Below, one piece after another: positions 15,887 through 33,251 of a DNA stretch of 64,000 bases. Source of the DNA: an uncultured Clostridia bacterium (lineage in GTDB: Bacteria; Bacillota; Clostridia; Christensenellales; Borkfalkiaceae); contig CAKNLK010000001.1 of NCBI GenBank assembly GCA_930989535.1, positions 1 through 64,000 on the forward strand, given 5' to 3'. Positions within the stretch are counted from its first letter, which is position 1; each line of letters opens with the position of its first letter. The position numbers and the translations under genes are program-made. A model generated the notes under the pieces. It searched no databases. It was not told where the DNA came from and worked only from the letters and a program-made list of their open reading frames with translations.

Positions 15887-17344
15887 TTATAATAACTTCA
15901 AAAACCGCTCGTAAGCCTTGGCGAAAATCTGCTCGTTCTTCGGATAATATTCCTTTATATCCGTGGAATTGCGCACGATTTGCCGCGCTTCTTCCGCGTC
16001 CTTGACCTTGCCGAGCGCAATCAGCTGGCAAAGAATATTTCCGAGCGCCGTGCCCTCGCCGGGGCCGGCGGTCACGCGGGTGCCGAGCGCGTCGGCTGTC
16101 GCCTCGTTCAGCATGATATTGTTGCTGCCGCCGCCGACGATATGCAACACGTCGATTTTGCGCCCCGTGAGTTTTTCCAGGGCGAGAATATTGTGTTTAT
16201 ATGCCAGAGCGAGCGAATCGTAGACGCACCTTGCGATTTCAAATTCATTCGCGGGAACGTTTCCGCCCGTTCTCTTGCAGAAGTTGACAATCTTTTCGGG
16301 CATGTCGTGCGGGGAATAAAATTCGTCCGCGTCGGGATTGATGAGGAATTTGCAGGGCTCCACTTTCGCAGCGCCCTCCGCAATCTCCGCAAAGGACATC
16401 TTTTTGCCCTCTTTATCCCACGTGCGCTTGCACTCCTGAATAATCCAAAGCCCCATGATATTTTTCAGGAAGCGGATGGAGTTGTTGTGCCCGCCCTCGT
16501 TCGTATAACCGGCAAGGCGCGCCTCTTTCGTGAGGATGGGTTTGCCCAATTCCATGCCGAGCAGCGACCATGTGCCGCTGGAGAGGAAAGCCGAGTTCTC
16601 GCCCTCTTTCGGGACGGCGAGATAAGCGGAAGCTGTATCGTGCCCCAGCGAGGAAATCACTTTCAGTTCGTGCTTCAAATCCAATTCGTCCGCCACTTCC
16701 TTCGTGACATTTCCCACGACCGTGCCGGGCGAAGTAATTGCGGGGAACAAATTTTTCAAGCCGTACGCGTTGAATATTTTATCGCTGAACTCGTTTTTGC
16801 CCGGGCGAATCAATTGCGACGTGCTTGCAATCGAAAATTCGCACGTCTTTTTACCCGTCAAGAAGTAGACGAACAAATCGGGGATAAACAGCGCGCAATC
16901 CGCATATTTCAGGGCGAGATTGTCATTTTTCTGCATGACGACAAGCTGGCAGAGCGTGTTGAACTTTTGGAATGCAAGCCCTGTTTCCGCAAAGAGCTCG
17001 TCCTTCGACAGAACCTCTTCCAGCATGGCGACGGCGTTTTCCGTATGCGAGCTGCGATAATGGAAGGGATTTGCAAGCAGCTGCCCGTCCTTTCCGATTA
17101 AGCCGAAATCGACGCCCCACGTGTCGATGCCCATGCTGTCGACGCCGCCCGCCTGGTCAGCCTTGATAATTCCCTGTTTCAGCTCGTGATACAGCCGCAG
17201 GATATCCCAGTACAATGCGCCGTTCACTTCCACCGGCTCGTTTAAAAACCGATGAATTTCTTCCAATTCAATTTTTTTGCCGTCGAAATGCCCGATGATT
17301 GCGCGGCCGCTCGAAGCGCCGAAATCAAAAGCAAGTATTTTCAT
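15887..17344 (-). CDS. rhaB: Rhamnulokinase (FGGY family)
   Basis: The 485-residue FGGY kinase has the RhaB N-terminus D-F-G-A-S-S-G-R, the H-R-F-L-N segment, substrate-loop G-I-D-T-W-G-V-D-F and N-T-L-C-Q-L, and the C-terminal G-G-G-S-N-N adenosine motif. It phosphorylates L-rhamnulose to the 1-phosphate in the cytoplasm, and related enzymes may also take L-fuculose. It supplies the substrate of the encapsulation-tagged aldolase at 28143. It is the last gene of the deoR-parA-parB-adh-rhaB unit. Rhamnose isomerase and a transporter are not in the window. Confidence 0.9.
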   Translation of the reverse strand: MKILAFDFGASSGRAIIGHFDGKKIELEEIHRFLNEPVEVNGALYWDILRLYHELKQGIIKADQAGGVDSMGIDTWGVDFGLIGKDGQLLANPFHYRSSHTENAVAMLEEVLSKDELFAETGLAFQKFNTLCQLVVMQKNDNLALKYADCALFIPDLFVYFLTGKKTCEFSIASTSQLIRPGKNEFSDKIFNAYGLKNLFPAITSPGTVVGNVTKEVADELDLKHELKVISSLGHDTASAYLAVPKEGENSAFLSSGTWSLLGMELGKPILTKEARLAGYTNEGGHNNSIRFLKNIMGLWIIQECKRTWDKEGKKMSFAEIAEGAAKVEPCKFLINPDADEFYSPHDMPEKIVNFCKRTGGNVPANEFEIARCVYDSLALAYKHNILALEKLTGRKIDVLHIVGGGSNNIMLNEATADALGTRVTAGPGEGTALGNILCQLIALGKVKDAEEARQIVRNSTDIKEYYPKNEQIFAKAYERFLKLL

Positions 17345-17368: not shown

Positions 17369-18514
17369 TTACCACAAATTTTCGTAGATGCTCATAATAT
17401 CCGCTTTGGTAGGAACTTTGGGGTTGGTCGCCGTGCAGCTGTCGGCAAGTGCGGCTTCCGCCATTGCGGGAATCTTGGAGCGGTACTCGCTTTCCGTGAT
17501 GTTCCCCATCTGCGAAATGGACAGCGGAATATTCATTTCCTTATCCATGAACTGCACCCAGTTTACGAACGCGCGAACCGTCGTGATGGTATTGAAATTT
17601 TGCAAGCCCAACAGCCGCGCAATCGAAACATATTTTTCGACCTGCTTCGGATATTCCTTCTGGCTGCGGGAATGGATATTGATGCCGCTGTTGTATTCGA
17701 TGATGTGCGGCAAAAGCATGGCGTTCGCCCTGCCGTGCGGTATATGGAAATTTGCGCCCAATTGATGCGCCATGCCGTGATTCAAGCCCAGCGACGCGGA
17801 GTTGAAAGCCAACCCTGCCAAGCAGGAAGCCACGTGCATTTTGCGCCGCGCATGCCAATCGTTCCCGTCCAAATAGGCTCGAAGCAGGAACGCGCCGCAG
17901 ATTTCAATCGCCTTTTCCGCCAAAGCAGCCGAAAATTCGTTGTTGTTGATGCTCGTGTACGCCTCGACCGCATGCGTCAAAACATCCATACCCGTATCCG
18001 CCGTGACATTCGGCGGAACGCTCTTCACGAATTCCTCGTCCAAAATCGCTTCATCGGGAAGAAGGCTGTCCGAAACCAACGGATATTTGATATGATGCAC
18101 CGTATCGGTGATAACGGAAAACGAAGTTACTTCCGAACCGGTGCCGCTCGTCGTCGGAATCGCGATGAGCGCGATTTTCTGCTTCTCGTCCATCTTGGAT
18201 GCAAATTCGCGAATCGCCTTCGCTGAATCGATGACGGAGCCGCCTCCGATTGCAATCAAACAGTCCGGCTTATAATCGAGCACCACCTTTACGCCGCCGA
18301 CAATCTTTTCGATGGGCGGGTCGGGAACGACGTCGTTGAACACGCGGAATTCTTTGCCCGTTTCACCCAACGGGTTGGTCACGAGCCGCAATAGTTCGCT
18401 CCCGGAAAAAAATTTATCCGTAATAATCAGGATGCGCTTGTAGGGAATGTCGCGCAACCGCTCGATTGCATTGTCTCCGAAATATATCTTTGTCTTAATG
18501 TCAAAACTCTTCAT
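17369..18514 (-). CDS. Iron-containing alcohol dehydrogenase (PduQ/FucO type)
   Basis: This 381-residue group III alcohol dehydrogenase has the G-G-G-S-V-I-D-S-A-K nucleotide motif near residue 90, the T-T-S-G-T-G-S-E loop, and the iron-site histidines in N-H-G-M-A-H-Q-L-G and I-P-H-G-R-A-N-A. Close family members reduce lactaldehyde to 1,2-propanediol (FucO) or propionaldehyde to propanol (PduQ, EutG), regenerating NAD+. No N-terminal encapsulation helix is visible, unlike the zinc enzyme at 25025. It sits between the ParB-like gene and rhaB, 20-25 bases from each. Which aldehyde it uses cannot be read directly. Confidence 0.88.
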   Translation of the reverse strand: MKSFDIKTKIYFGDNAIERLRDIPYKRILIITDKFFSGSELLRLVTNPLGETGKEFRVFNDVVPDPPIEKIVGGVKVVLDYKPDCLIAIGGGSVIDSAKAIREFASKMDEKQKIALIAIPTTSGTGSEVTSFSVITDTVHHIKYPLVSDSLLPDEAILDEEFVKSVPPNVTADTGMDVLTHAVEAYTSINNNEFSAALAEKAIEICGAFLLRAYLDGNDWHARRKMHVASCLAGLAFNSASLGLNHGMAHQLGANFHIPHGRANAMLLPHIIEYNSGINIHSRSQKEYPKQVEKYVSIARLLGLQNFNTITTVRAFVNWVQFMDKEMNIPLSISQMGNITESEYRSKIPAMAEAALADSCTATNPKVPTKADIMSIYENLW

Positions 18515-18534: not shown

Positions 18535-19017
18535 TTACAGCAGATAATCAGGAAGGTCTTTTCCTATGCTGCGAATTGCGTTAAATTTTTCTTCGTGGAT
18601 ATCCGAAACCTGTCCGTCGCTGTCCGCCGTTACCGCAATCTCGGCAGCCGCTTCTGCCTGCCGATAGCGCGCAAGGACTTCCTTTTTCGCCGTCTGCGCG
18701 CCGCTCCCCTCCAAAGTAAGGACGATTGCTTTGACAGCCGCAAGTCCTGCCTCGATTGCCGCCTGAAGGCGCAATTTACCCGAAATCAAAGTGAACGCCT
18801 CCCCGTCGCACAGCACGAACACAGGGTGCAGCACCCCGTATTTTTTGACTGACTTAATCAACTCTGCGGGAACCGATTCCGGCGCAGTAAATTTTATTTT
18901 GGAAATTTCAATTTCAGACAGAGCTGTTTCCGCGCGAAATGCGTTTTTCTGGGCCTTTTCGCCCGTCTTCGAAATCGCGCCCGTCGCGCGCTTGATGCTC
19001 GCGTTTCCTATCGGCAT
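18535..19017 (-). CDS. ParB-fold protein without DNA-binding domain (ParA partner)
   Basis: The 160-residue protein has a basic, probably unstructured N-terminus (about residues 1-30, several Lys and Arg). A ParB/sulfiredoxin-like domain follows (about 33-105): I-E-I-S-K-I, then an I-K-S-V-K-K-Y-G-V-L-H-P-V-F-V segment and L-I-S-G-K-L-R-L-Q-A-A. That last motif replaces the G-E-R-R-x-x-A of chromosomal ParB. The helix-turn-helix and dimerisation domains of true ParB are missing. Its start overlaps the parA stop by ten bases. It may be an adaptor that stimulates ParA while binding a cargo other than DNA, by analogy with McdB and carboxysomes. The cargo is inferred from location. Confidence 0.65.
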   Translation of the reverse strand: MPIGNASIKRATGAISKTGEKAQKNAFRAETALSEIEISKIKFTAPESVPAELIKSVKKYGVLHPVFVLCDGEAFTLISGKLRLQAAIEAGLAAVKAIVLTLEGSGAQTAKKEVLARYRQAEAAAEIAVTADSDGQVSDIHEEKFNAIRSIGKDLPDYLL

Positions 19018-19793
19018 ACTTCCATTACCTCCTTGGCAAGTTCATAATATTCTTTGCTGCTTCTTGAGCTTCTCTTGTATTTTCCGACCGGTTTGCTGTT
19101 GTCCTGCGCCCATTCGATGCTGCTGTCGAGATGAATCTGCGTTTCAAAGACGTGCGCGGGCAATTCCTTCAATGTCTCCATTGTCTGCTTGAAATAATTT
19201 TTTCTTCCGTCGACCTTCGTGACTGCGATTCCCGCAATCTTTAAATCGGGAGCAACGCCCTTCGCCTCGGATAAAAATTCGAACAGGTTGGACAGCCCGA
19301 ACAATCCCCAAGGGCTCGCCTCGACCGGTACAACGAGATAATCGGACGCCGCTAAAATATTCATCACCCATCCGCCGAGCGTGGGCGGCGAATCAATCAA
19401 TATGAAATCGTATTTGCCGGAAGCCTTTACGTTTTGCAGGCATTTTTTCAGCACATATTCCCGCTGCCATTTCGAAAACAATTCAAACTCAATGGAACTC
19501 ATCAGCGTGGAAGAAGGGACGATATCCAGGTTATCGTATCCCGTCGGCAATATATAATCCGTCAAATCGTCCTGCTTTTTAATCGCGGTGTAGAGGTTTT
19601 TCTCCCCTGCCGCCAGCGACAGAACCTTTTCCTCGTCGAAGTACGCGAGGGACAGATTCAGCTGCATATCGCCGTCGACGAGCAAAACTTTTTTGCCCTC
19701 GGCAGCCATAAAGTAGCCGACATTGGAGCAAGTCGTCGATTTGCCGCTGCCCCCCTTGTTGTTTGCAAAACAGATAATCCGCGTATCAGCCAT
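19008..19793 (-). CDS. ParA-family ATPase of the microcompartment locus
   Basis: The protein has a deviant Walker A, N-K-G-G-S-G-K-S-T, near residue 13, with the signature lysine of the ParA/MinD family, A-prime motif V-D-G-D-M-Q-L-N-L-S, and Walker B I-L-I-D-S-P-P. Dimerising ParA ATPases bind the nucleoid and space out plasmids, chemoreceptor arrays or carboxysomes. I chose the ATG at 19793 (GAGGTGG upstream), which overlaps the deoR stop by eight bases; the frame extends to 19838 but that start has no ribosome binding site. No parS-like repeat or replication gene is near, and both neighbours are microcompartment-related, so positioning of the compartment is a more likely task than DNA segregation. 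Confidence 0.85.
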   Translation of the reverse strand: MADTRIICFANNKGGSGKSTTCSNVGYFMAAEGKKVLLVDGDMQLNLSLAYFDEEKVLSLAAGEKNLYTAIKKQDDLTDYILPTGYDNLDIVPSSTLMSSIEFELFSKWQREYVLKKCLQNVKASGKYDFILIDSPPTLGGWVMNILAASDYLVVPVEASPWGLFGLSNLFEFLSEAKGVAPDLKIAGIAVTKVDGRKNYFKQTMETLKELPAHVFETQIHLDSSIEWAQDNSKPVGKYKRSSRSSKEYYELAKEVMEVCR

Positions 19794-20565
19794 TTTCGCC
19801 ACCTCTCGGATAAATGCACTCGATATCGTTCGCAACAAAAATCCTGTTCCACTCGTCGCTCGGGCAACGCTCCGTGATTACGGCGTCGATTCCCGAAAAG
19901 CCGCTTATCGAAGCAAACGACAGCTTGCCGAACTTGGAGGAATCTACGGCAAAAAATACCTGCGAAGCCGCCGCAATCATCTTGCGTTTTACCGCCGCGT
20001 GCGCGTCGCTGCTGTCCGAAAACCCGTGCTCCGCTTCCACTCCTTTGCAGGAAATAAACGCTTTATCGACATGGAAGCGCTCGAGACATTCCTCCGCCTG
20101 GCTGCCGATAAGCGCGCAGGAACGCTCTTTCAGCGAACCGCCGGTGGAAAGTATTTTCCAGCCGGTCACGTCGGACAATTCCATCAATACTTCCAGCGAG
20201 TTCGTCAAAAGCGTGATGTCCTTTTTTGCCTTGATTTTTTGCGCAATAAACAGGGCCGTGGAACTTGCGTCCAAAATCAATGTATCGCCGTCCATGATGA
20301 GCTCCGCCGCAAGTTCCGCTATCTTTTGCTTTGCTTCCACGTTCGCCTTTTTCCGCACCACGTACGGAAGCTCAATCGCCGCGCCTTCGCTGATTACGGC
20401 TCCGCCGTAGGTTTTGACGACGTAGCCCTCTTTCTCCAACTTGTCCAAATCGCGGCGGATTGTTTCCTCCGAAACCTCGAACTGTTTGGCGAGTTCGCTG
20501 ACAACGACGTGTTTTTCTTCTTTCAATGCTGTCAGGATTGAGTTTCTTCTCTCAATAGCAAACAT
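19786..20565 (-). CDS. DeoR-family transcriptional regulator
   Basis: A typical 259-residue DeoR repressor: N-terminal winged HTH (E-R-R-N-S-I-L, then V-S-E-L-A-K-Q-F-E-V-S-E-E-T-I-R-R-D-L-D) and the G-G-A motif at about residue 54, followed by the sugar-phosphate-sensing isomerase-like domain with D-A-S-S-T-A-L-F and a late F-A-S-I-S-G-F-S-G-I-D segment. Such regulators usually respond to phosphorylated sugar intermediates, here plausibly rhamnulose or fuculose 1-phosphate. It heads the parA-parB-adh-rhaB unit. A TTTTGTGGTTTT motif shared by the two main promoters of the locus is a candidate binding site. Confidence 0.9.
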   Translation of the reverse strand: MFAIERRNSILTALKEEKHVVVSELAKQFEVSEETIRRDLDKLEKEGYVVKTYGGAVISEGAAIELPYVVRKKANVEAKQKIAELAAELIMDGDTLILDASSTALFIAQKIKAKKDITLLTNSLEVLMELSDVTGWKILSTGGSLKERSCALIGSQAEECLERFHVDKAFISCKGVEAEHGFSDSSDAHAAVKRKMIAAASQVFFAVDSSKFGKLSFASISGFSGIDAVITERCPSDEWNRIFVANDIECIYPRGGENG

Positions 20566-20654: not shown

Positions 20655-21203
20655 TTATAAGATTTGATTTATCAATTTCTTATCGGGCCGTGCTATCACG
20701 GAACTATCCAAATACATTCCGCGCGGTTCAACCGCTTTTTGAGCGCGGGCAATCGCCGCTTCGACCGCGGCCACTTCGCCCGTAATCAAAAGGTAACTCT
20801 TGCCGCACATACCGCGCGCGAGCCGGATTTCAATCAAAGATACTTCCGCCGTTTTCGCCGCCTGGTCTGCCGCAACGATGATTGCCGCCGCATCAAACGT
20901 CTCAATAATGCCGAGCGAATTGACGATTTCCACTTTCGAGGCCCCGTAAATCGCGGGGAAAATTTCATCCGCGGGATTGCCGAGGACAAAGCTGTCGATG
21001 AGGTGCATCGAATGCACCGTCTTTGCCGCCTCGACGGATGCGTTGACTGCGGATAGTTCACCCGTAATAATCACTATGTATTTGCCGGGGCAAACCGTTT
21101 CCGCCTCGATAATATCTACGTCTGCGGTTTTAACCATCGTATCCGCCGCAGTCATGCCGGCCGATACCGTTTTAAATTCCGCCATTCCGATTGCTCTGCT
21201 CAT
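20655..21203 (-). CDS. pduT: BMC-T shell protein, PduT-like
   Basis: The 182-residue protein is a tandem of two BMC domains (about 1-90 and 95-182), the trimer-forming BMC-T class. Cys38 lies in V-C-P-G-K-Y; in PduT the cysteine at this position from three subunits binds a [4Fe-4S] cluster in the central pore. With PduS encoded directly upstream (3-base gap), this gives an electron conduit across the shell for NAD+ or other cofactor recycling. It is the last gene of the long shell and enzyme operon, followed by a terminator. Confidence 0.9.
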   Translation of the reverse strand: MSRAIGMAEFKTVSAGMTAADTMVKTADVDIIEAETVCPGKYIVIITGELSAVNASVEAAKTVHSMHLIDSFVLGNPADEIFPAIYGASKVEIVNSLGIIETFDAAAIIVAADQAAKTAEVSLIEIRLARGMCGKSYLLITGEVAAVEAAIARAQKAVEPRGMYLDSSVIARPDKKLINQIL

Positions 21204-21206
21204 AGG

Positions 21207-22538
21207 TTACCTCTCTGCCTTGTCGATAGTAATAAAATTCGCGTCTACCGTGCGAACGCGCCCCGAAATGGACGCATGGATTGCCACGCTTAAACCGCTT
21301 GCGGGATTGGCAATAATCTGCCCGCGCTCCACCATATCGCCTCCCTTGACCGCAGCCACGGCGGGTGCGCCGATGTGCTGGCGGAGAGGGATTTTTACGC
21401 TCTCTACGGATACACATTCATCCTGCAAGGGAGCGGGCGCATCGTATTTTGCAAGGTCGAGCCTCGCCATCAAACGCTTCATGGGAGCTTTGCGGAACTC
21501 TCTTGCGGGCGAAACGGGCGCGGCCTGTACCTGCGGTGCCTTTACGCCTGCGGCGCGCAGACCGTTTTTGTACTCCGCCATCAACGTGCGAGGCGACAGT
21601 CCCTGGAAGCAGGAATACAGCTCGCACAATCCGCAGGAGCAGCAGAAGAATGTGTCGAGGAAAATATTCGGGTCTTGCACATCCTTGCAGGTTGCCGCGC
21701 GCATAAAGAGATGCGGCTGAATCGGATGCCCCAACAAATGGCGGGGGCAGAGGTCGGTGCACATGCTGCACTGGCAGCAGCTCGCCGCCGCGCGCTTGAG
21801 CATAACTTCCGTGTTCGAGCGCTTGCGCTGCACCAAATAATGATTCTCCGGCAATACGAGGATTGCGTTGGTCGTCTTGGTAATCGGCGCCGTGCCAGGC
21901 ATGATGTTGCCCATCATCGGCCCGCCGACAAAATAGACGGGATTTTTAATCTTTGCGCCGCCGGCCAATGCGACCGCGTCTTCCACGGTTGCGCCGAGCG
22001 GCATTCTGACCGTAATCGGCGAATTGACTTCCGCAACCACGCTCACGAGCTTATCGACGACCGGTTCCTGCTTATGCAGAGCGCGATAAAGGTTGTAGAG
22101 CGTTTCGACGTTGAATACAATCACGCCGCTCTCGATGGGAAGCCCGCCCGGCCGGACGACCTTGCCCGTTACTTCGTATATCAAAACGACTTCGTCGCCC
22201 GCGGGATATACTTCGTCCAAAAGCCCGAGTTTGACGCCGGGATATTTCGGAATAACCCCTTTCAAGGCTTCGACAGCCTGCTTATATGCCTTTTTAATGC
22301 CGATAATTGCCTCTTTTGCCCCCACCGTTTCCATTATTAGGTGAAAGACAGAAACAATTTCATCCGCATGTTTTTCCAATAATTGGCGGTGAAGTTTGAG
22401 CAACGGCTCGCACTCCGCACAGTTCATAATAATCGTTTCGGCGCGTTTGTCCAATTTTGCGTATGTAGGAAAACCTGCGCCGCCGGCACCGACAACACCG
22501 TTCTTTTGCAATATGTCGGCGAGTTCTTTCATTTCCAT
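21207..22538 (-). CDS. pduS: RnfC-like flavo/iron-sulfur oxidoreductase, PduS type
   Basis: The 443-residue protein opens with G-V-V-G-A-G-G-A-G-F-P-T-Y-A-K-L, the Rossmann-like NADH/FMN-binding segment of the RnfC/NuoF group. A middle SLBB-like domain follows, then two [4Fe-4S] motifs, C-C-Q-C-S-M-C-T-D-L-C-P and C-C-S-C-G-L-C-E-L-Y-S-C, and a C-terminal lipoyl-like segment. In cobalamin systems PduS reduces corrinoid, but no cobalamin-dependent enzyme is encoded here, so it more likely shuttles electrons between the lumen and outside together with PduT. Confidence 0.9.
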   Translation of the reverse strand: MEMKELADILQKNGVVGAGGAGFPTYAKLDKRAETIIMNCAECEPLLKLHRQLLEKHADEIVSVFHLIMETVGAKEAIIGIKKAYKQAVEALKGVIPKYPGVKLGLLDEVYPAGDEVVLIYEVTGKVVRPGGLPIESGVIVFNVETLYNLYRALHKQEPVVDKLVSVVAEVNSPITVRMPLGATVEDAVALAGGAKIKNPVYFVGGPMMGNIMPGTAPITKTTNAILVLPENHYLVQRKRSNTEVMLKRAAASCCQCSMCTDLCPRHLLGHPIQPHLFMRAATCKDVQDPNIFLDTFFCCSCGLCELYSCFQGLSPRTLMAEYKNGLRAAGVKAPQVQAAPVSPAREFRKAPMKRLMARLDLAKYDAPAPLQDECVSVESVKIPLRQHIGAPAVAAVKGGDMVERGQIIANPASGLSVAIHASISGRVRTVDANFITIDKAER

Positions 22539-22547
22539 AAACAGCCG

Positions 22548-22811
22548 TTACTCCAAATTTTGTCCTTCGTCCAGAATACCCACGATTGCAGCGTCTACAG
22601 GAGCCGTATCCATACCGCAACCGACGCGCGCGGCACTGCCCTGCGCTACCAAAACATATTCACCGATTCCCGCGCCAATCTTATCGATTGCCACAATCCG
22701 ATGCGAAACTTTTAAGCTCGGAATCGGCTCGACAATCATAAATTTATTTCCAACCAAATTCTCACACTTGCGCGTCGATACGACGCTGCCGATAACCTTT
22801 CCAATAATCAT
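22548..22811 (-). CDS. pduN: BMC-P pentameric vertex protein (EutN/CcmL/PduN)
   Basis: An 87-residue EutN/CcmL-fold protein: M-I-I-G-K-V-I-G-S-V-V-S-T at the start, G-N-K-F-M-I-V in the first barrel half and a D-A-A-I-V-G-I-L-D segment at the end. Five copies cap each vertex of the icosahedral shell; a single copy in the locus is normal. I chose the ATG at 22811 because GAGGTG lies eight bases upstream; a GTG three codons earlier would be too close to that site. Confidence 0.93.
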   Translation of the reverse strand: MIIGKVIGSVVSTRKCENLVGNKFMIVEPIPSLKVSHRIVAIDKIGAGIGEYVLVAQGSAARVGCGMDTAPVDAAIVGILDEGQNLE

Positions 22812-22827
22812 ATGGCGCACACCTCGA

Positions 22828-23472
22828 TTAAATGATTCGAACCGTCATACCGGTCGAAATCTTCGCGGCATTCGCTTCGTCCGTATCGATATGCATTTCC
22901 AAGGTAAAGCTGTCGTTCACGCGGATTTGGACATGGTTGAAAACGGTGCCGCGCTCATTGTCTGCACGGACGGAAACGACGTCGCCGTCTTTCACCCCTG
23001 CGGCCTCGGCGTCCTTCGGCGCCATATGTATATGCCGCTTTGCTATGATGCAGCCTTCCTTCAGATAAATCGCACCCTTCGGCCCGACCAAAGCAATCGG
23101 GGCGCTTCCCGCGATATTGCCCGACTCACGAATCGGAGCTTTTACGCCCAGCTTCAAGGCATCGGTAGCGGAAATCTCGACCTGAGATTTGCCTCTGCAG
23201 GGACCCAAAACACGCACATTTTCAATCGCACGGAGTTTTAAGCCGACGATCGTTACGCATTCTTCGGCGGCAAACTGCCCGCCCATCAACTCTTTCTTTT
23301 TATGCAAAGTATGCCCCGGCCCGAACAGTGCTTCCACATGTTCCTGCGTAAGATGCACATGCCTTGCCGATACGCCGACGGGTACCAAAAAGCCTTTACC
23401 GGATTCCTGCTGCTCTTCCAGCGCCTTTAAAGCAAGTTTCGTAATCAATTCGATTGTCTTTTCTTCTACCAT
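22828..23472 (-). CDS. pduL: PduL-type phosphotransacylase
   Basis: The 214-residue protein has two PduL domains with zinc-ligand histidines in S-A-R-H-V-H-L (near residue 36) and K-R-H-I-H-M (near residue 144). An amphipathic helix in the first 20 residues (T-I-E-L-I-T-K-L-A-L-K-A-L) is separated from the body by a Glu/Gln/Ser linker and fits an encapsulation peptide. It turns propionyl-CoA plus phosphate into propionyl phosphate inside the compartment and recycles CoA for the aldehyde dehydrogenase. The product can be used by AckA in the cytoplasm. Confidence 0.95.
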   Translation of the reverse strand: MVEEKTIELITKLALKALEEQQESGKGFLVPVGVSARHVHLTQEHVEALFGPGHTLHKKKELMGGQFAAEECVTIVGLKLRAIENVRVLGPCRGKSQVEISATDALKLGVKAPIRESGNIAGSAPIALVGPKGAIYLKEGCIIAKRHIHMAPKDAEAAGVKDGDVVSVRADNERGTVFNHVQIRVNDSFTLEMHIDTDEANAAKISTGMTVRII

Positions 23473-23601
23473 AATACCAACCTCGATACGCTTGAGGGCA
23501 ATTTACGGCGCTGCGCCGATTGGCGCATGCCGAAAAAAATGTACACAAAACCATTCCCGCCTGTTTCAACGGGAAGAGATAAATTTTTTTACTGGTTTTA
23601 A

Positions 23602-23645
23602 GCGGCTACCTTCACCCCGCCGGGAAAGGCGGGGTGAAACCGCTC
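23602..23645 (-). other. Strong intra-operon hairpin after the shell gene block
   Basis: TTCACCCCGCC and GGCGGGGTGAA (23612-23639) form a perfect 11-bp stem with a 6-base loop, extended by AGCGG/CCGCT outside a small bulge. No T run follows on the minus strand, so this is not a classic terminator. It lies in a 201-base gap between the last BMC-H gene and pduL, and may protect the 3' end of a shell-gene mRNA or mark a processing site. Confidence 0.6.
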
Positions 23646-23673
23646 CGCTTGATTCGAAATTCCTTTCCTAAAC

Positions 23674-23955
23674 TTATTTAGCAAGCGTAGGCAGGATCTT
23701 TTCGACATCGGAATGAGGGCGAGGAATAACGTGCTTCGCGACCAATTCGCCGAGCTTGGATGCGTTCGCCGCGCCAGCTTCGACAGCAGCGTTCACCGCG
23801 CCGACGTCGCCGCGCACCATGACGCTCACCAATCCGCTGCCGATTTTCTCGGTGCCGATCAAGGAGACGTTCGCAGCTTTGAGCATGGCATCGGCAGCCT
23901 CGATAGCGGCAACCAAACCTCTCGTTTCAATCATTCCCAATGCTTCCAACGACAT
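23674..23955 (-). CDS. BMC-H hexameric shell protein, copy 1
   Basis: A 93-residue canonical single-domain BMC-H protein of the PduA/EutM/CcmK type: [11 protein letters not shown] at the start, pore-loop K-I-G-S-G near residue 38 and V-I-P-R-P-H at the end. Hexamers of such proteins tile the shell facets, with the small pore passing 1,2-propanediol and other metabolites. It is over 85 percent identical to the copy at 24380-24655, with long stretches identical at the DNA level, pointing to recent duplication or gene conversion. Confidence 0.95.
23732..23859. repeat. Direct repeat inside BMC-H copy 1 (partner 24432-24559)
   Basis: Blocks of 44 bases (23732-23775) and 65 bases (23795-23859) are identical to blocks exactly 700 bases away in the other BMC-H gene, while the bases between and outside differ at synonymous and flanking positions. 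This is the pattern left by gene conversion between tandem paralogues. Confidence 0.75.
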
Positions 23956-24031
23956 TTCTTTCTCCTCCTTTAGAGATATTTAACGAATTTATTTGTAATT
24001 GTGGGCAAGCGCCCGAACTACCGTTGTTTTA

Positions 24032-24355
24032 TCAGGTATCGTGCACCATCGGTGCATCCTTCCCTTTCTTTTTTGCAAGGCGGGAAGCGGAAAGCTGCAC
24101 GAGCCGCTCCGTTTCGGGGTGCGGATTCGCTATAACGGCTTTTGCAACCGGCCTTTTAATCGCGTTTGCAGCCGCCGCTTCGACAGCTTCGGTAACCGCC
24201 GATATCGAGCCTCTCACGATGAGAGTTACCAGCCTGCCGCCGAGTTTCCTTTCCCAAGTTACCAGTTCGACATCCGCCGTTTTGCACATGATGTCGAGCG
24301 CATCCATCGCCGCGGTTACGCCGGATATTTCGATAAAACCGAGTGATTTTTCCAT
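24032..24355 (-). CDS. BMC-H shell protein, divergent
   Basis: A 107-residue single BMC domain (S-L-G-F-I-E-I-S-G-V-T-A-A at the start, R-K-L-G-G-R in place of the usual K-I-G-S-G pore loop, V-I-A-N-P-H at the end). A basic C-terminal tail of about 20 residues (S-A-S-R-L-A-K-K-K-G-K) has no counterpart in the neighbouring copies. The bulky, charged pore-loop residues suggest a different pore selectivity. The gene lies between the two near-identical BMC-H copies, with 24 and 76 bases to its neighbours, in the shell block of the operon. Confidence 0.92.
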   Translation of the reverse strand: MEKSLGFIEISGVTAAMDALDIMCKTADVELVTWERKLGGRLVTLIVRGSISAVTEAVEAAAANAIKRPVAKAVIANPHPETERLVQLSASRLAKKKGKDAPMVHDT

Positions 24356-24379
24356 TTTGTCCTCCGGCCTAACAACCTA

Positions 24380-24655
24380 TTACAGTTTCGGGAGAATTTT
24401 CTCAACGTCTGCGTGAGGGCGGGGAATGACATGCTTCGCGACCAATTCGCCGAGCTTGGATGCGTTCGCCGCGCCTGCGTCAACAGCAGCGTTTACCGCG
24501 CCGACGTCGCCGCGCACCATGACGCTCACCAATCCGCTGCCGATTTTCTCGGTGCCGATGAGGGTAACCTCGGCCGCCTTTACCATCGCATCCGCAGCTT
24601 CGATTGCAGCAACCAAACCTCTGGTCTCAATCATGCCCAATGCTTCCTTAGCCAT
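24380..24655 (-). CDS. BMC-H hexameric shell protein, copy 2
   Basis: A 91-residue canonical BMC-H protein, nearly identical to the one at 23674-23955; the differences lie mainly in the first few residues, around residues 24-30 and near the end. The same K-I-G-S-G pore loop is present. Two near-identical facet proteins may raise dosage of the main shell tile, as with PduA and PduJ in Salmonella. A nucleotide repeat with copy 1 is listed separately. Confidence 0.95.
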
Positions 24656-24691
24656 AACTCTATATCCTCCTAAAATGTTATCCGTTTATTT

Positions 24692-25006
24692 TTAATTTTT
24701 GTCGAACGCGTTGAGTTTTAACATCGACTGCGTTCCGTCTTCAGGGTTTGCAATAATATGCCTGCTGACGACGCCCGATATTTTCTCAGCCGCCGCGCCT
24801 GCCGCTTCAACCGCCGCTTCGACTGCGGCAACGTCTCCCCGGAATTTGATGCAAACAATCAACGGCACGGGCAACGCATCCGCATTTGCTGGTTTATTTT
24901 TATCAAAATTTTCGACAACCACATCCGCAGCTTTGCAACCTGCGTCCGCTGCGACAAACGCGCACGCCAAACCGAAAACTTCGATGATTCCGACTGCCTT
25001 AGCCAT
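24692..25006 (-). CDS. BMC-H shell protein with enlarged loop
   Basis: A 104-residue single BMC domain (A-V-G-I-I-E-V-F-G-L-A at the start, H-I-I-A-N-P-E-D near the end). A loop of about 12 extra residues (around positions 36-48, N-K-P-A-N-A-D-A-L-P) lies where the pore-facing or concave-face loop of PduA is short. It could change pore shape or dock a cargo protein. It is the first shell gene after the enzyme block, 18 bases downstream of the zinc alcohol dehydrogenase. Confidence 0.9.
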   Translation of the reverse strand: MAKAVGIIEVFGLACAFVAADAGCKAADVVVENFDKNKPANADALPVPLIVCIKFRGDVAAVEAAVEAAGAAAEKISGVVSRHIIANPEDGTQSMLKLNAFDKN

Positions 25007-25024: not shown

Positions 25025-26239
25025 TTATTTGTTGATGATTGCGATTTTCAGACCTTCCATGCGCAAGTTTGTCCTGTGCGCCTCGTTGATTTCTTCAAGC
25101 GGGAAGGTATGTGTAATCAATTTATCCATCGGAAGGCCAATCCCTTTCGCGCGCTTGAGGAAGTCAAAGGTCGTCGCGTAATCGCGGAGGGTATATACCC
25201 AGGAACCGACCGTAGTGATTTCCTTCGAGCAGATATCGAAGTGAGGATTGATTGTTGCATCGCCGCCGTTGATAAAGAACCCGAGCTCGCACAATCCGCC
25301 GCCGTTGCGAATAAATTTGTAGATATTCGAATGGGCTACAGGCGAACCGGTGCACTGGAATGCAAAGTCGGCAAGATGTCCGCCAAAAGAATCTTCCACT
25401 GCCTTGACAAGGTTTTCGATTCCTTTATATTCCTTGAAGTTGACCGTCTTGTCGGCCCCCATTTCCTTGGCGAACGCAAGGCGCTTTTCCTCGCCGTCCA
25501 CTGCCGTAATGTTTTCAATGCCCATCGTGCGCAGAACGGCGATGCAAATCAAGCCGATCGGGCCGCAGCCTTGCACGACGACTCTGCTGTTGAAGCGGAG
25601 AATGCCTGTCGTCTTTGCGCGCTCGACCGCATGCACGAGCACTGCGCAGGGTTCAATCAAAATTCTCGAATATAAGTCGAGATCGCTGACGTTGAAAATC
25701 GTGCTTCCGCCGCGAACAAATAAGTAATCCGAGAACCACCCGTTAAAATGGATATCGTCGTCAGGAAGCAAACCGTATACGTCAGCCCCGCCAACGTTCT
25801 GCTTGTTGAGATCGAACATCGTGATGTCGGGGTTATCCTTGAAAATCATGCAGGTGACGACTTTGTCGCCCAAATGCAAGTCTTTTCCGGCGCTGTCCTT
25901 TTTGACATTTTTGCCCATTTTTACAATTTCGCCTGTGCCCTCATGGCCGAGGACGAGAGGGATGAGATTGAAAGGATCGCGCTTAAATTCGTGCGCATCG
26001 GTACCGCAGATGCCGCATCCCTCTACTTTGACAAGGATATCGTTGTCGCCGACTTCGGGAAGCGGATACTCCTTGATTTCATATTTCTCCTTCTCGACCA
26101 GCATTGCGACGCGCGCCGTTTTGGGAATCGAAGTCCCGGCCGCGGGCGCCGCCGCGGGTGCAGAAGCCTTTGCGCCGCCCGTCATGCCCTCGAGAACTTT
26201 GCGAACGATATCTTCAATATTTTGATTGTTTATATCCAT
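25025..26239 (-). CDS. Zinc-type (MDR) alcohol dehydrogenase with encapsulation peptide
   Basis: Residues 1-22 form an amphipathic helix (N-I-E-D-I-V-R-K-V-L-E-G-M), followed by an Ala/Pro linker to about residue 38: a typical encapsulation tag. The body is a medium-chain dehydrogenase with catalytic-zinc residues in C-G-I-C-G-T-D-A-H-E and G-H-E-G-T-G, and NAD(P) motif G-C-G-P-I-G-L. The four-cysteine structural zinc loop is absent. It probably reduces lactaldehyde to 1,2-propanediol or propionaldehyde to propanol in the lumen, recycling NADH. It lies between the aldehyde dehydrogenase and the shell genes. Confidence 0.85.
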   Translation of the reverse strand: MDINNQNIEDIVRKVLEGMTGGAKASAPAAAPAAGTSIPKTARVAMLVEKEKYEIKEYPLPEVGDNDILVKVEGCGICGTDAHEFKRDPFNLIPLVLGHEGTGEIVKMGKNVKKDSAGKDLHLGDKVVTCMIFKDNPDITMFDLNKQNVGGADVYGLLPDDDIHFNGWFSDYLFVRGGSTIFNVSDLDLYSRILIEPCAVLVHAVERAKTTGILRFNSRVVVQGCGPIGLICIAVLRTMGIENITAVDGEEKRLAFAKEMGADKTVNFKEYKGIENLVKAVEDSFGGHLADFAFQCTGSPVAHSNIYKFIRNGGGLCELGFFINGGDATINPHFDICSKEITTVGSWVYTLRDYATTFDFLKRAKGIGLPMDKLITHTFPLEEINEAHRTNLRMEGLKIAIINK

Positions 26240-26255
26240 AGTCGTCTCCTTTTTG

Positions 26256-27644
26256 TCAGCGAATACACAAGCTGTCGCTCATTACGCACCTGCGGCGCTT
26301 TGTAAAAGTAGAAGCCGAGGTGAGCCCTTCGCCCGTTCTGCTCGCAATGGTAAATGTGCAGAAGCCTTCTCCGCCGAAGCCGAGCGCCGCATACGAAGGC
26401 CCGTTTTTGACGAGGATTGCGGTGTCGATTGCCTTTGCGTATTTCGTGATGTTGTCCACGTTTTTAGAGTGAATATGCGCCGAATGGCGATTGCCGTGTT
26501 CCAGCCAAACGGCCTTTTCCACCGCGTCGTCAAAGTCCTTCGCGCGGACGATTCCCAGAATCGGCATCATCAGCTCCGTAGAAATGAGCGGGTGTTCCTT
26601 TTCGCCCTCAAAAATGATGCAGCGGATACTGTCGGGAACTTCTACGCCAATCATACCGAGAAGCACTTTCGCGCTTCTGCCGACGCATTTGCGGTTCAAC
26701 CCCTTCGGGGTAAGCACCGTGGCGACGAGCTTGTCCTGCTCTTCCTTGCTCGCAAGATAGCAGCCCTGCTCGGTAATCATATAATTCATGAGTTCGTCAA
26801 CGATTGAATCGACAGCAACGACTTCCTTTTCCGCAATGCAGGGAAGATTGTTGTCGAAAGTACAGCCGTTCACGATATCCTCTGCCGCTTTGCGAATGTC
26901 TGCCGTCTCGTCGACGAGTGCGGGAGGATTGCCCGCACCCGCGCCGATGCCGCGCTTTCCGGAGGAAAGAACTGCGGTAACGACACCGGGACCGCCGGTA
27001 GCCGCAATCAGCGGGATATCCTTATGCTTCATCATGATGGCGCTCGTCTCCAACGTCGGTTTGACGAGGGAGCAGGCGACGTTTTCAGGGCCGCCCGCTT
27101 CGACGGACGCTTGGTTAATCATCCTGACTGCATAATTCGACGTTTTAATTGCCGCTGGGTGCGGGTTGAATACAACCGTATTGCCGCCGGCAATCATGCC
27201 GATGCTGTTGCAGATAATCGTCTCGCTCGGGTTCGTGCAGGGCGTGATGGCGCCGATTACGCCGAAAGGCCCCATTTCCACGAGCGTGAGCCCGCGATCG
27301 CCCGACCATGCCGTAGTGGTGATATCCTCCGTTCCGGGAGTCTTTTCCGCTACTAATCTATGTTTCAAAATTTTATGCCCGACATTGCCCATGCCCGTCT
27401 CGTCGACGCCCATGCGCGCCAGCGTTTCAGCGTTTTCCAAAGTTTTTTTGCGGATGGAGGAAATAATTTTTTCCCGCTGATCCATGGACATTCTTTTGAG
27501 AACGGCCTGCGCCTTTTTCGCGGCGGCGATGGCTTCGTTCATATCGGTGAAAATGCCCATGCCGGTTTCCGTGCCGGCATCCGTGAGGTTCAGCTTTGCG
27601 ACGACTTCTTTGACAATGTCTTGAACAGCTTGTTCGTTCAACAT
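26256..27644 (-). CDS. pduP: CoA-acylating propionaldehyde dehydrogenase (PduP type)
   Basis: The 462-residue aldehyde dehydrogenase has an N-terminal amphipathic helix (residues 1-19, Q-A-V-Q-D-I-V-K-E-V-V-A-K-L) that fits an encapsulation peptide. The catalytic cysteine is Cys269 in N-N-L-P-C-I-A-E, and G-A-G-N-P-P-A-L-V-D is typical of the PduP/EutE class. It oxidises propionaldehyde to propionyl-CoA with NAD+ inside the compartment. Its stop lies 16 bases from the alcohol dehydrogenase, and its start overlaps the PduO-C-like gene by seven bases. Confidence 0.94.
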   Translation of the reverse strand: MLNEQAVQDIVKEVVAKLNLTDAGTETGMGIFTDMNEAIAAAKKAQAVLKRMSMDQREKIISSIRKKTLENAETLARMGVDETGMGNVGHKILKHRLVAEKTPGTEDITTTAWSGDRGLTLVEMGPFGVIGAITPCTNPSETIICNSIGMIAGGNTVVFNPHPAAIKTSNYAVRMINQASVEAGGPENVACSLVKPTLETSAIMMKHKDIPLIAATGGPGVVTAVLSSGKRGIGAGAGNPPALVDETADIRKAAEDIVNGCTFDNNLPCIAEKEVVAVDSIVDELMNYMITEQGCYLASKEEQDKLVATVLTPKGLNRKCVGRSAKVLLGMIGVEVPDSIRCIIFEGEKEHPLISTELMMPILGIVRAKDFDDAVEKAVWLEHGNRHSAHIHSKNVDNITKYAKAIDTAILVKNGPSYAALGFGGEGFCTFTIASRTGEGLTSASTFTKRRRCVMSDSLCIR

Positions 27645-28141
27645 TCCGTCATCTCCTTAAATTTATCTCTGCCGTATGCCGCAAGCGCCGTATCCTGCTC
27701 CGCAGTGCCGCCGCTCACGCCCAGCCCGCCGACAATTTTATCGCCGACAGCCAACGGCTCTCCGCCGCCGAAAATAACGATTTTGCCTTGATTGGTGAAC
27801 TGTATGCCGTACAGCGGCGCGCCGGGCGCAGCCAACGCGGCAAGCTCTTTTGTCGACATCTTCAGTGCGACGACCGTATACGATTTTTGCAGCGCGATAT
27901 CCCAGCTTGCAAGATATGCCCCGTCCATCGATTGCACGGCAATCGGGTTTCCGCCCTTGTCCGCGACCGCGACAACGGCTTTGACGCCCATCTCTTTCGC
28001 GCGCGCTTCCACGGCTTCGCAGAGGCTCTTCGCCTTTTCCAATGTCAGCTTAAAACAGCCGCATTTGCAGGTATGTTCCCTCTCGGGCTTTAAACCGCGG
28101 ACGACTCGCTCGACCGCAGCCGCTATTTCCCGCTCGTCCAT
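27638..28141 (-). CDS. GlcG/HbpS-like domain protein (PduO C-terminal domain), EP-tagged
   Basis: The 167-residue protein begins with an amphipathic helix (E-I-A-A-A-V-E-R-V-V-R-G-L) and a C-K-C-G-C cluster near residue 25. A GlcG/HbpS/DUF336 domain follows, with A-V-A-D-K-G-G-N-P and ending in G-L-G-V-S-G-G-T-A-E-Q-D. In Salmonella this domain is fused to the PduO cobalamin adenosyltransferase and can bind haem; here it stands alone, matching the cobalamin-independent dehydratase. The helix suggests it travels inside the compartment. Function is not established; haem or corrinoid binding is possible. Confidence 0.82.
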   Translation of the reverse strand: MDEREIAAAVERVVRGLKPEREHTCKCGCFKLTLEKAKSLCEAVEARAKEMGVKAVVAVADKGGNPIAVQSMDGAYLASWDIALQKSYTVVALKMSTKELAALAAPGAPLYGIQFTNQGKIVIFGGGEPLAVGDKIVGGLGVSGGTAEQDTALAAYGRDKFKEMTEC

Positions 28142-28142
28142 A

Positions 28143-28943
28143 TTAGATTCCGAGTTCCTTCATTACTTTTTTCGTGATTTCCGCTACCAAATCGGAATCG
28201 GAGCCAGAAGTCTTCGCCGAAGCGCATCCGCCGCAGGAATGGCAGCTGGGTTTGCCCTCTTTCGCATTCAGGCAGACGTTTGCAGGGTGTTTGCCCTTCA
28301 AACCGAACTGACGGCGAATCTCATACAGCCTTTCGACCTGCTCTTTGGAGAGTTCCTTCGGGCCGCCGAGCTGTTTGGAAAGGAACAGCAACTCCGCATA
28401 GAACTCGACCGATTCCATCTTGTGATAGGCGTTCAGAAGCGTATCGGAATAGGTGAGCGCGCCGTGGTTCGCCAAGAGAACGGCGTCAAAATACTGGAGG
28501 TATTTCGAAACGGCGTCCGGAATTTCGTTCGTGGAAGGCGTGCCGTATTCGGCGATGGGAACGCAGCCGAGCGCGATGACCGCTTCCGGCATAATCGGCT
28601 GGGTGAGCGGAATTCCCGCAATCGCAAAGGAAGTAGCGTACATCGGGTGCGCGTGCACGACCGAGTTGACGTCCGGCCTCTCTTTATAGACGCGCATGTG
28701 CATCTTGATCTCCGAAGAAGGCTTAAATCCCTTGTTCGCCTGCAAAACATTGCCGTTTTCGTCAACTTTGCAGATGAATTCAGGAGTCATGAAACCCTTG
28801 CTGACGCCCGTCGGGGTGCAGAGAAACTCATGCTCGTTCAATTTGACAGAGATGTTGCCGTCGTTCGCCGCAACCATGCCGCGGTTGTAAATACGTTTGC
28901 CGATGTCGCAAATCTCTTTTTTAATCTCGTACTCGTTAACCAT
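28143..28943 (-). CDS. Class II aldolase (fuculose/rhamnulose 1-phosphate type), C-terminal EP
   Basis: A class II aldolase/adducin-fold enzyme of 266 residues with G-N-I-S-V-K near the N-terminus and the zinc ligands in H-A-H-P-M-Y near residue 100. It cleaves fuculose or rhamnulose 1-phosphate to DHAP and L-lactaldehyde. After the catalytic body (to about 220) comes a C-x-x-C-x-x-C cluster (C-H-S-C-G-G-C) and a last amphipathic helix (D-L-V-A-E-I-T-K-K-V-M-K-E-L), a C-terminal encapsulation peptide as seen in the fucose/rhamnose glycyl-radical compartments. It is the first gene after its own strong promoter. Confidence 0.9.
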   Translation of the reverse strand: MVNEYEIKKEICDIGKRIYNRGMVAANDGNISVKLNEHEFLCTPTGVSKGFMTPEFICKVDENGNVLQANKGFKPSSEIKMHMRVYKERPDVNSVVHAHPMYATSFAIAGIPLTQPIMPEAVIALGCVPIAEYGTPSTNEIPDAVSKYLQYFDAVLLANHGALTYSDTLLNAYHKMESVEFYAELLFLSKQLGGPKELSKEQVERLYEIRRQFGLKGKHPANVCLNAKEGKPSCHSCGGCASAKTSGSDSDLVAEITKKVMKELGI

Positions 28944-28982
28944 TTTGACACTCCTATTTTTGCAAGTTTATTTTTTTGTTTT

Positions 28983-29011
28983 ATTATAATACATAAAACC
29001 ACAAAAGTCAA
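28983..29011 (-). promoter_or_regulatory. Internal promoter of the compartment operon (before aldolase)
   Basis: On the minus strand TTGACT (29006-29011), a 17-base spacer and TATAAT (28983-28988) form a near-consensus sigma-A promoter. The spacer holds TTTTGTGGTTTT (28995-29006), identical to a 12-mer beside the promoter at 33252. It would drive aldolase, pduP, the shell genes and pduS/T independently of the dehydratase genes. Confidence 0.82.
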
Positions 29012-29019
29012 CACTTTAA

Positions 29020-29526
29020 TCAAATATTTTTTGGAAAATTTGACCGTTTTTGTTGTTTTTGTTGTTTTTGTTTGGTTTTATCCCACGGAAGCACGTCGTT
29101 AGGCTCCCGCAGATACTCGAAGATGTCGGCGATGCCCTCCCCGGATACGGAGGAGACGAAAAAAATCTTTCCGCAGCCGGCAAGTTTCAGCCAAGCGGCC
29201 GCCCTCTGCGGATCGCCGGACGGGTCATCCGTCTTCGTTACAATTCCCACGACCTCGCGGTTTACCATGCAGGTGACGTTCGGCGGGTAGAGCGAAAAGG
29301 GTTCCGTCGAAGAAAGGAGCAACCCCACTACGTCCGCTTCGTATGCGTAGAGCGCGAGCGCATATCCCAGCCGCTTGGTTTCCACATACTCGCCGGGCGT
29401 ATCTATCAAGGCGCCCTGAAAGTTGACGTACTGCGTTTTATGATAGGTGATTTTTTCGCCCCGAAGCGCCTGCGTGAGCGTCGTTTTGCCCGCGCCGCTT
29501 CGCCCCATCAAAACAATTTTCCGCAT
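29020..29526 (-). CDS. pduV: EutP/PduV-type small GTPase
   Basis: A 168-residue P-loop GTPase with G-R-S-G-A-G-K-T-T (G1), D-T-P-G-E-Y (G3) and T-K-T-D (G4), as in EutP/PduV. In Salmonella PduV associates with the compartment surface and affects its movement; its exact role is unclear. The C-terminus is a low-complexity Lys/Gln tail (K-Q-K-Q-Q-K-Q-Q-K) encoded by a short tandem TTTTTGTTG-type repeat (about 29046-29072). It overlaps nothing, and its stop is next to the internal promoter. The locus thus has two nucleotide-dependent systems that could affect positioning, this one and ParA. Confidence 0.88.
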   Translation of the reverse strand: MRKIVLMGRSGAGKTTLTQALRGEKITYHKTQYVNFQGALIDTPGEYVETKRLGYALALYAYEADVVGLLLSSTEPFSLYPPNVTCMVNREVVGIVTKTDDPSGDPQRAAAWLKLAGCGKIFFVSSVSGEGIADIFEYLREPNDVLPWDKTKQKQQKQQKRSNFPKNI

Positions 29527-29529
29527 AGA

Positions 29530-29910
29530 TTAGGTTTTGGTAATGGCACAGCAGCTGACGCCCAAGACATCGGAGCTGTACCGGATGAGCGCATCCATCG
29601 CCGCTTCGACCTGCGATACCGTGCCCGTCACAATCAATGTTCCGCTGAATCGGTCGACAAACCCGAGGTCGACGCCCGACGACTTTATCGATATATCGCC
29701 GAGTATTATCGCCGTCTCCGCAGGGCTGACGGTCACGATGCCGATGGCCGACTGGCTGTAATCCACAGCCGGATTGAGGCCGAGTTTTTGATAGAGAATT
29801 TTGTCGGGATTTGCGATGATATGCGCCAGGGTGATTTGCTTGCCGGGGACGAGCTCTTGCACGATGCGCATCTTGCCGCTTTTATCGCTGATCAAATCGT
29901 TGACGTCCAT
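29530..29910 (-). CDS. pduU: Circularly permuted BMC-H shell protein (PduU/EutS type)
   Basis: This 126-residue protein has the permuted BMC order of PduU/EutS: an N-terminal extension, then R-I-V-Q-E-L-V-P-G-K-Q-I-T-L-A-H-I-I at residues 15-32, and the usual start of the fold (A-I-G-I-V-T-V-S-P-A-E-T-A-I-I) in the middle. The first residues probably form the small beta-barrel that plugs the hexamer pore in PduU. It is co-operonic with PduV, and PduU-PduV contact is reported in Salmonella. Confidence 0.88.
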   Translation of the reverse strand: MDVNDLISDKSGKMRIVQELVPGKQITLAHIIANPDKILYQKLGLNPAVDYSQSAIGIVTVSPAETAIILGDISIKSSGVDLGFVDRFSGTLIVTGTVSQVEAAMDALIRYSSDVLGVSCCAITKT

Positions 29911-29911
29911 A

Positions 29912-30709: not shown

Positions 30710-30711
30710 AA

Positions 30712-33219: not shown

Positions 33220-33251
33220 ATAAAACACTTCCTTATAGCTTTTTCGACTTT

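Follow-up and report, generated by a model that had tools for sequence, protein, structure and literature searches.

A ParA-type ATPase gene and, directly behind it, the gene of a small protein with a truncated ParB/sulfiredoxin (Srx) fold stand inside a microcompartment (BMC) cluster in the window, by which we mean the whole 64-kb stretch of DNA analyzed. We conclude that this pair is probably an McdAB-like positioning system for a GRM5-like metabolosome, because both ends of the small protein, here called the partner, match published features of McdB. The ParA/ParB-fold gene pair itself is real. Partners found beside ParA are complete open frames in 72 of 72 cases, and over the fold dN lies well below dS in 12 of 12 pairs (dN 0.05-0.47, dS 1.0-3.6, several of the dS values being saturated), which argues against a chance arrangement.

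The coordinates of the pair and of its surroundings are collected in Table 1. The two genes share ten bases (19008-19017). For ParA we used the ATG start; the ORF list has it start further out, at a TTG at 19838. ParA scores 173 bits against the Pfam model AAA_31, and its KGGSGK[ST]T loop is intact in all 75 ParA proteins examined. The first 30 residues of the partner carry a net charge of about +4, as counted from the sequence, and no HTH or dimerization model was found in this protein by Pfam at E <= 1. The sequence-only reading had described a ParA with a deviant Walker A, overlapping by ten bases a 160-residue protein with a ParB/sulfiredoxin-like domain, no HTH or dimerization domain, G-K-L-R in place of G-E-R-R, and a basic N terminus, the two genes lying between DeoR and the alcohol dehydrogenase and rhaB. 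All of these features were confirmed, and all of these genes lie on the same strand.

Table 1. Positions in the window of the gene pair, the partner's motifs, and the surrounding microcompartment cluster
Feature	Position	Strand	Basis and remarks
ParA-type ATPase, BMC-associated subfamily	19008..19793	-	261 aa from ATG; deviant Walker A KGGSGKST
ParA partner/adaptor, truncated ParB/Srx fold	18535..19017	-	160 aa
Partner N-terminal motif MPIGNASIKRATGA	18976..19017	-	predicted ParA-binding peptide; putative function from McdB/ParB literature
Partner ParB/Srx fold, residues 31-105	18703..18927	-	Pfam, AF2, Foldseek
Partner Box II GxxR (G-K-L-R), nucleotide-binding fold	18769..18780	-	
Partner C-terminal motif IHEEKFNAIRSIGKDLPDYLL	18538..18600	-	predicted compartment-docking tail
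DeoR-type regulator, overlaps ParA start	19786..20565	-	ORF list, Pfam
Iron-containing alcohol dehydrogenase, lactaldehyde-reductase-like	17369..18514	-	Pfam/NCBIfam
Rhamnulokinase-like kinase (RhaB)	15887..17344	-	NCBIfam rhamnulo_kin 470.5 bits, below cut-off 528
Shell/core genes: BMC-T (PduT-like), PduS-like, EutN/CcmL pentamer, PduL-like, four BMC-H	20655..25006	-	BMC-T and EutN by Pfam/NCBIfam, BMC domains by domain search; PduS and PduL presumed from the sequence
Core enzymes and shell: dehydrogenase, aldehyde dehydrogenase, PduO-like, class II aldolase, BMC-H, activase	25025..33228	-	class II aldolase by Pfam/NCBIfam; BMC-H, dehydrogenases, PduO and activase presumed from the sequence
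EutP/PduV GTPase	29020-29526	-	Pfam/NCBIfam
Glycyl radical enzyme	30712-33228	-	Pfam/NCBIfam

A pfam00596 aldolase is described as a mark of GRM5 loci (PMC8217296). The GRM5-like marks are all present here (glycyl radical enzyme, pfam00596 aldolase, shell genes, and a nearby rhamnulokinase), and by its gene content the cluster is a predicted GRM5-like, sugar-degrading glycyl-radical microcompartment. A transposase gene, presumably IS30-like, adjoins it on the minus strand (34798-35793).

Linkage of the pair to the compartment was assessed in 301 genomes of the window's family, which were searched with the ParA query (E <= 1e-50) and for BMC shell domains. The ParA subfamily occurred in 65 genomes and BMC in 73; all 65 ParA-positive genomes were BMC-positive, and none of the 228 BMC-negative genomes carried ParA (Fisher p 1.5e-57, a statistic that ignores shared descent). 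Counted by genus, ParA was present in 6 and BMC in 7 of 18. Among the matches listed, ParA and a BMC gene shared a contig, no more than 8,875 bases apart, in at least 51 of the 65 genomes, a lower bound. ParA is dispensable, since 8 of the 73 BMC-positive genomes lack it, namely four of the window's genus and four that are 64-82% complete. Of the four from the genus, three (G009, G020, and G032) were covered for at least 9 kb behind DeoR, and this stretch contained neither ParA nor partner, and there the iron-containing alcohol dehydrogenase is missing too, in a cluster otherwise alike; in a fourth (G021), where the contig stops 570 bases behind DeoR, no ParA or partner was seen. Thus, the presence of ParA implies that of a BMC but not the reverse, and the earlier proposal that the pair goes with the compartment is borne out.

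The partner query matched 56 of 101 related genomes at E <= 0.001. A short homologue (frame of 142-188 aa, E < 1e-8) was present in 14 of them; the remaining matches fell in frames of at least 226 aa, save one of 142 aa that is truncated by the start of its contig. The 14 short-homologue genomes were all among the 25 with BMC domains and none among the 76 without, and in each of the 14 the order was DeoR, then ParA, then the short homologue. Asked whether the partner co-occurs with BMC genes or with parS and replication genes, the genomes side with BMC. One genome (G681; loci L097 and L132) carries two ParA-partner pairs and 11 BMC domains versus the usual seven.

Outside the family the subfamily is rare, as only 3 of 391 genomes of the class sample carry ParA. 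A second sample, of the order, contained it in 9 of 277 genomes, eight besides the window's own. The loci of families f29 and f32 lie inside BMC clusters in five of five cases. In f83, ParA was found in all nine genomes and BMC in eight, the BMC genes being on other contigs or about 100 kb away (G175); the ninth (G721, 76% complete) has ParA and no BMC gene was seen in it. Three genomes of f13 have ParA, and the two examined for BMC both have BMC genes on other contigs, so that in neither f83 nor f13 do the shell genes identified lie close to ParA. No ParA was seen in the BMC stretches of G080 and G081.

The same co-occurrence would also fit a pair that controls the assembly, size, or aggregation of the compartment (anti-clumping or pole anchoring), with ParA as a switch and with no nucleoid spacing. 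Precedents point in that direction: the Salmonella shell protein PduK is reported to prevent polar clumping of Pdu compartments (PMC13052382), and an excess of McdA to change carboxysome shape (PMC6328274). A separate point against the positioning reading is that metabolosomes need not use a ParA-type system, since Salmonella Pdu compartments are described as being placed without McdAB, ParA, or MinD (PMC12866334). Against assembly control, the closest described layout, McdAB, does position its compartment, and the KGGSGK[ST]T loop is kept in every ParA examined; we consider assembly control unlikely.

The positioning reading draws on the two ends of the partner. Elsewhere in the family, the gene behind ParA in two further genera encodes a protein without the ParB fold (89 and 82 aa), and yet these proteins start with MSIGKNAIKR... 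and end in ...IPVYYL and ...LPYYLL, like the window's partner. We formulated an N-terminal pattern (M-x-[ILV]-G-x-x-[AS]-[ILV]-x-R) and a C-terminal pattern (P-x-[YFW]-[LYWF]-[LMI]-end) and searched every ParA locus for ORFs starting from 40 bases before to 400 bases behind the ParA stop. Both end motifs stand beside ParA at 72 of 75 loci and at 5 of 8 further loci (77 of 83 together); the six misses are two contig ends (G545 and G779) and four partnerless ParA genes (G175, G722, G072, and G099). Among loci unexamined when the patterns were written, 30 of 31 match, the miss being a contig end. By comparison, no other ORF of at least 40 aa in the 64-kb window has either motif, and 268,069 bases of other sequence contained no ORF with both motifs and one with either. 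The four orphan ParA genes have no partner within 400 bases, and neither motif was found in 138,605 bases around these genes and BMC clusters (the surroundings of the G722 ParA being locus L107). The partnerless loci (L106, L107, L152, and L153) belong to genera g120 and g30, whose genomes have BMC genes elsewhere and which pair up as sisters, weakly supported (79/47), on the ParA tree.

Between the conserved ends the middle is exchangeable. It is a ParB fold in 33 of the 77 partners and a Lys/Ala/Pro-rich linker in 44, the short forms being 60-131 aa long. The division into long and short forms was made by pattern and then checked by profile and by Pfam. A profile built from 32 long middles separated the two cleanly, with 61.8 bits for the left-out one (G772) and at most 5.6 bits for 40 short partners. 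Of 10 further long partners, 7 reached the Pfam ParB_N cut-off, two stayed below it (G492 and G532), and one had no match (G772); none of the 11 short partners scanned (9 + 2) had one. The long-form partner of G532 (165 aa) has NG, not YG, in Box I. In five of nine short partners we observed histone-H1-like HC2 matches below the cut-off, as Lys/Ala repeats give, and on this account short linkers might touch DNA directly. The mean net charge of the first 16 residues is +2.1 in short and +2.6 in long partners, and that of the last 12 is -1.7 and -1.1, respectively. All 77 have an aromatic residue within the last five, as the search pattern demanded; at the third position from the end, 3 of 72 have Trp and the others Tyr or Phe. 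Of the earlier claim of a ParB-fold adaptor, the link of the pair to the compartment therefore stands, but the fold is not a constant part of it. Two loci deviate in other ways: a 375-aa long partner (L114, G725) has both middles, with an extra Lys/Ala/Pro-rich stretch ahead of its ParB fold, and in L080 (G039) an in-frame TGA interrupts ParA beside an intact partner, by decay or assembly error.

These ends resemble those described for McdB. McdA binding by Halothiobacillus neapolitanus McdB is reported to require the first 20 residues of McdB, which also suffice for it; Lys7 is critical there, and a role of hydrophobic residues is predicted (PMC12204374, a preprint). ParB likewise uses an N-terminal motif to dock at the interface of the ParA dimer (PMC12462528). 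At the other end, McdB requires its C-terminal aromatic residue to associate with carboxysomes, and the McdB-like proteins encoded near PDU/GRM loci have Tyr or Phe in their last five residues (PMC11321042). Like McdAB, the pair lies within or beside a BMC cluster and has a small partner encoded behind a ParA-type gene, and the partner has a basic N terminus and an aromatic residue in the last five with acidic neighbors. H. neapolitanus McdB is largely disordered (PMC12204374), and the short partners are likewise linker-like. Differences exist as well: McdB was described without identifiable similarity to ParB (PMC6328274), whereas the partner here can carry a ParB/Srx fold, and the strict carboxysome McdB has an invariant C-terminal Trp, which few partners share. 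This likeness was judged from published features, and we do not class the partner as McdB. Nevertheless, the earlier verdict that the adaptor is unlike McdB fails at both ends of the protein.

As both ends fit the McdB and ParB literature, nucleoid-based positioning with an end-to-end adaptor is the likeliest reading. In the mechanism that we infer, ParA would dimerize with ATP and coat the nucleoid, and the partner would dock on the compartment through its C-terminal -LPDYLL tail. Its N-terminal IGNASIKRA peptide would contact ParA dimers and stimulate ATP hydrolysis. Compartments would then follow ParA gradients and so be kept apart and split between daughter cells, with the fold or linker between the ends setting spacing and self-association.

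The fold was examined by several methods. Pfam ParB_N matched partner residues 51-103 at 27.9 bits (cut-off 26.3; profile positions 28-81 of 95), and the closest relatives by sequence among solved structures are the N-domains of ParB and Noc. The AlphaFold2 (AF2) model, built from 10 sequences, is weak overall (mean pLDDT 59.8), with block means of 70-81 over residues 31-100, which form the ParB/Srx fold. The first 30 residues are of low confidence and presumably disordered, and the C-terminal part consists of two low-confidence helices, after which the protein ends. Foldseek matched this model to ParB with CTP analogues, Noc, PadC (6ryk), sulfiredoxin, and SbnI. A ten-row alignment that includes seven other ParB-domain rows has S56, G61, P65, G80, R83, and G91 as invariant residues.

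The Foldseek matches to sulfiredoxin and SbnI raise the alternative that the fold is an enzyme of either type serving the chemistry of the compartment. Sulfiredoxin requires a Cys in Box II, but no Cys is conserved there in the partners, and the fold is dispensable, being missing in 44 of 77. An enzymatic role is thus very improbable, and on these two grounds we rejected an Srx or kinase activity of the fold.

When the partner was tested for a ParB-CTPase fold, the Box I helix/loop and the Box II GxxR were both present. GxxR is kept in 31 of 33 long partners, as GKLR, GACR, GAKR, GHKR, and others, and its Arg is lost in both g18 genomes. The Glu of the canonical GERR occurs in none of the 33, and the three partners that were aligned have no P-x-Q-P-R stretch. 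Structure titles among the Foldseek matches with CTP analogues name the Myxococcus xanthus ParB mutants Q52A and E93A, and we take E93 to be the Glu of GERR. Box II GxxR is described as contacting phosphate (PMC12704722). Nucleotide hydrolysis by the fold is doubtful, as both the GERR Glu and the P-x-Q-P-R stretch are absent. The fold may thus bind a nucleotide without efficient hydrolysis, and what it adds is most likely a nucleotide-sensitive self-association.

A ParA beside a ParB-fold gene is also the layout of parAB, and ParB_N does reach the Pfam cut-off, as might be seen if a decayed partition locus of a plasmid or chromosome had been left behind in the cluster. On plasmids we found eight weak partial ParB matches, none covering 80%, and phages and viral contigs gave no match. 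Two plasmid ParA matches are 39-41% identical; one belongs to an ordinary parAB with a 295-aa ParB, the other record is unannotated there, and both served as outgroup only. The sequence-only reading had counted homologues mostly on plasmids or beside parS as evidence against itself; no close plasmid relative was found, and the 64-kb window has 0 parS-like sites with up to 3 mismatches. A separate canonical-type ParB exists in 13 of the 14 short-homologue genomes, once as a 101-aa fragment, no partner out of 72 has LG[RK]GL in its first 40 residues, and dN below dS over the fold also speaks against decay. A partition relic is hardly credible, and a plasmid, phage, or viral origin of the pair was rejected for want of close relatives. 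In the window's own genome (G000, 91.6% complete) no canonical ParB was found, probably because of an assembly gap.

The position of the pair next to DeoR was considered as well. In the genus, the genes of DeoR, ParA, and partner follow each other with an overlap or with gaps of at most a few tens of bases, and the ParB-fold protein KorB regulates plasmid genes (PMC12704722), so the pair might be a regulatory appendix of DeoR whose ParB-fold member responds to a nucleotide or metabolite and sets how strongly the cluster is expressed. Such a role is quite improbable given that the partner has no HTH model, that the supposed sensing fold is missing in 44 of 77 partners, and that the neighborhood changes: in G047, G058, and G856 the pair stands behind EutP, with DeoR not adjoining, and a EutP gene lies upstream of ParA in 39 of 40 short-partner loci.

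This EutP has a variable, Lys-rich tail (for example in L051, L088-L092, L116, L133, and L193) that ends in -[WYH]LL in 23 of the 39 cases (Trp or Tyr in 22, His in one); this ending is missing from the other 16 and from the window's own EutP. With G856 added, the count is 24 of 40 short-partner loci; these 24 tails are not independent, because the loci are related. An ending -[WYF]LL was found in 0 of 598 matches from 20 other gene families of these clusters, some genes being counted repeatedly, and -[WYH]LL in none of the best 30 EutP matches from 30 genomes of the class sample. PduV has been proposed as a positioning factor (PMC8262871), but Salmonella EutP is reported to be cytosolic (PMC12487888). 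Partner and EutP may share a docking site on the compartment, and the shared -[WY]LL end on EutP/PduV is a concrete lead on where on a shell positioning factors might dock.

To trace the history of the fold, we used a ParA tree of 84 rows. Homologues with at least 55% identity form a clade apart from ten outgroup ParA proteins (29-41% identical). The deepest branch within this clan holds g212 and g270 of f83, which have the long form. Short forms occur in a clade of g3, g9, and g10 and, as an independent case, in three f32 genomes whose sister is the long-form f29 genome (100/98). From this topology the fold looks ancestral and lost about twice, two changes being the minimum; since the basal support is moderate (99/75, 89/84, and 88/80), loss is the better but not the sole reading. 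The fourth f32 genome (G856, L193) falls inside the g3 clade and has the EutP-ParA order typical there. Its tree position and gene order suggest that the whole cluster (EutP, ParA, and short partner) was transferred from the g3 lineage of another family.

Foldseek also places the partner beside PadC of M. xanthus, likewise a ParB-fold protein, for which we know of no compartment or -YLL tail. PadC connects ParA not with parS DNA but with a protein scaffold, bactofilin, and serves chromosome segregation (PMC5703909), whereas the pair here accompanies a BMC. With canonical ParABS the pair shares a ParA followed by a ParB_N-domain protein with a GxxR box; it differs in lacking an HTH or dimerization model, LG[RK]GL, a parS in the window, and a close plasmid relative. 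The ParB-CTPase fold is described as widespread, often fused to other domains, and binding CTP, ATP, or GTP (PMC12704722); a term search of the main text of that paper gave no microcompartment, metabolosome, or organelle.

McdAB-like pairs near GRM, PDU, EUT, and other non-carboxysome BMCs have been predicted (PMC8262871, PMC11321042, and PMC13052382), Axen et al. name ParA as one of the ancillary genes of BMCs (PMC4207490), and EutK, a protein different from the partner, was speculated to act like ParB (PMC12487888). In the text of the literature searched, whose figures and supplements may list one, a ParB-fold partner at a BMC locus is nowhere mentioned, and term searches of PMC12704722, PMC6325248, PMC6620236, and PMC8217296 returned none. 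Hence, the suggestion of a new adaptor class holds for the ParB-fold adaptor, which is undescribed in that literature, and does not hold for McdAB-like systems at metabolosome loci, which were already predicted in print. Nor did the literature searched contain a ParA system demonstrated to position a metabolosome.

A bolder joint reading, which we regard as possible but rather doubtful, is that these loci show a ParB on its way to becoming an McdB-like organelle adaptor, all of the following parts included. A ParB-fold protein would have lost its DNA-binding and dimerization parts, kept the N-terminal ParA peptide, and gained the -P-x-Y-L-L docking tail; at least two lineages would then have lost the ParB fold, leaving a linker-like, McdB-like protein. 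Where it remains, the fold would bind a nucleotide without hydrolysis and couple positioning to the metabolic state. The ending -[WYF]LL would be a general docking tag for one compartment site, present also on EutP/PduV, so that both supposed positioning NTPases would meet on the same surface.

The pair bears on the origin of McdB-type adaptors, since McdB was described as resembling no ParB. The clan offers a series of partners on one ParA tree, with a ParB fold plus tail or a linker plus tail, and its two conserved end motifs, both short, lend themselves to single deletions. That the fold is swapped for a linker in relatives hints at how such adaptors may have evolved.
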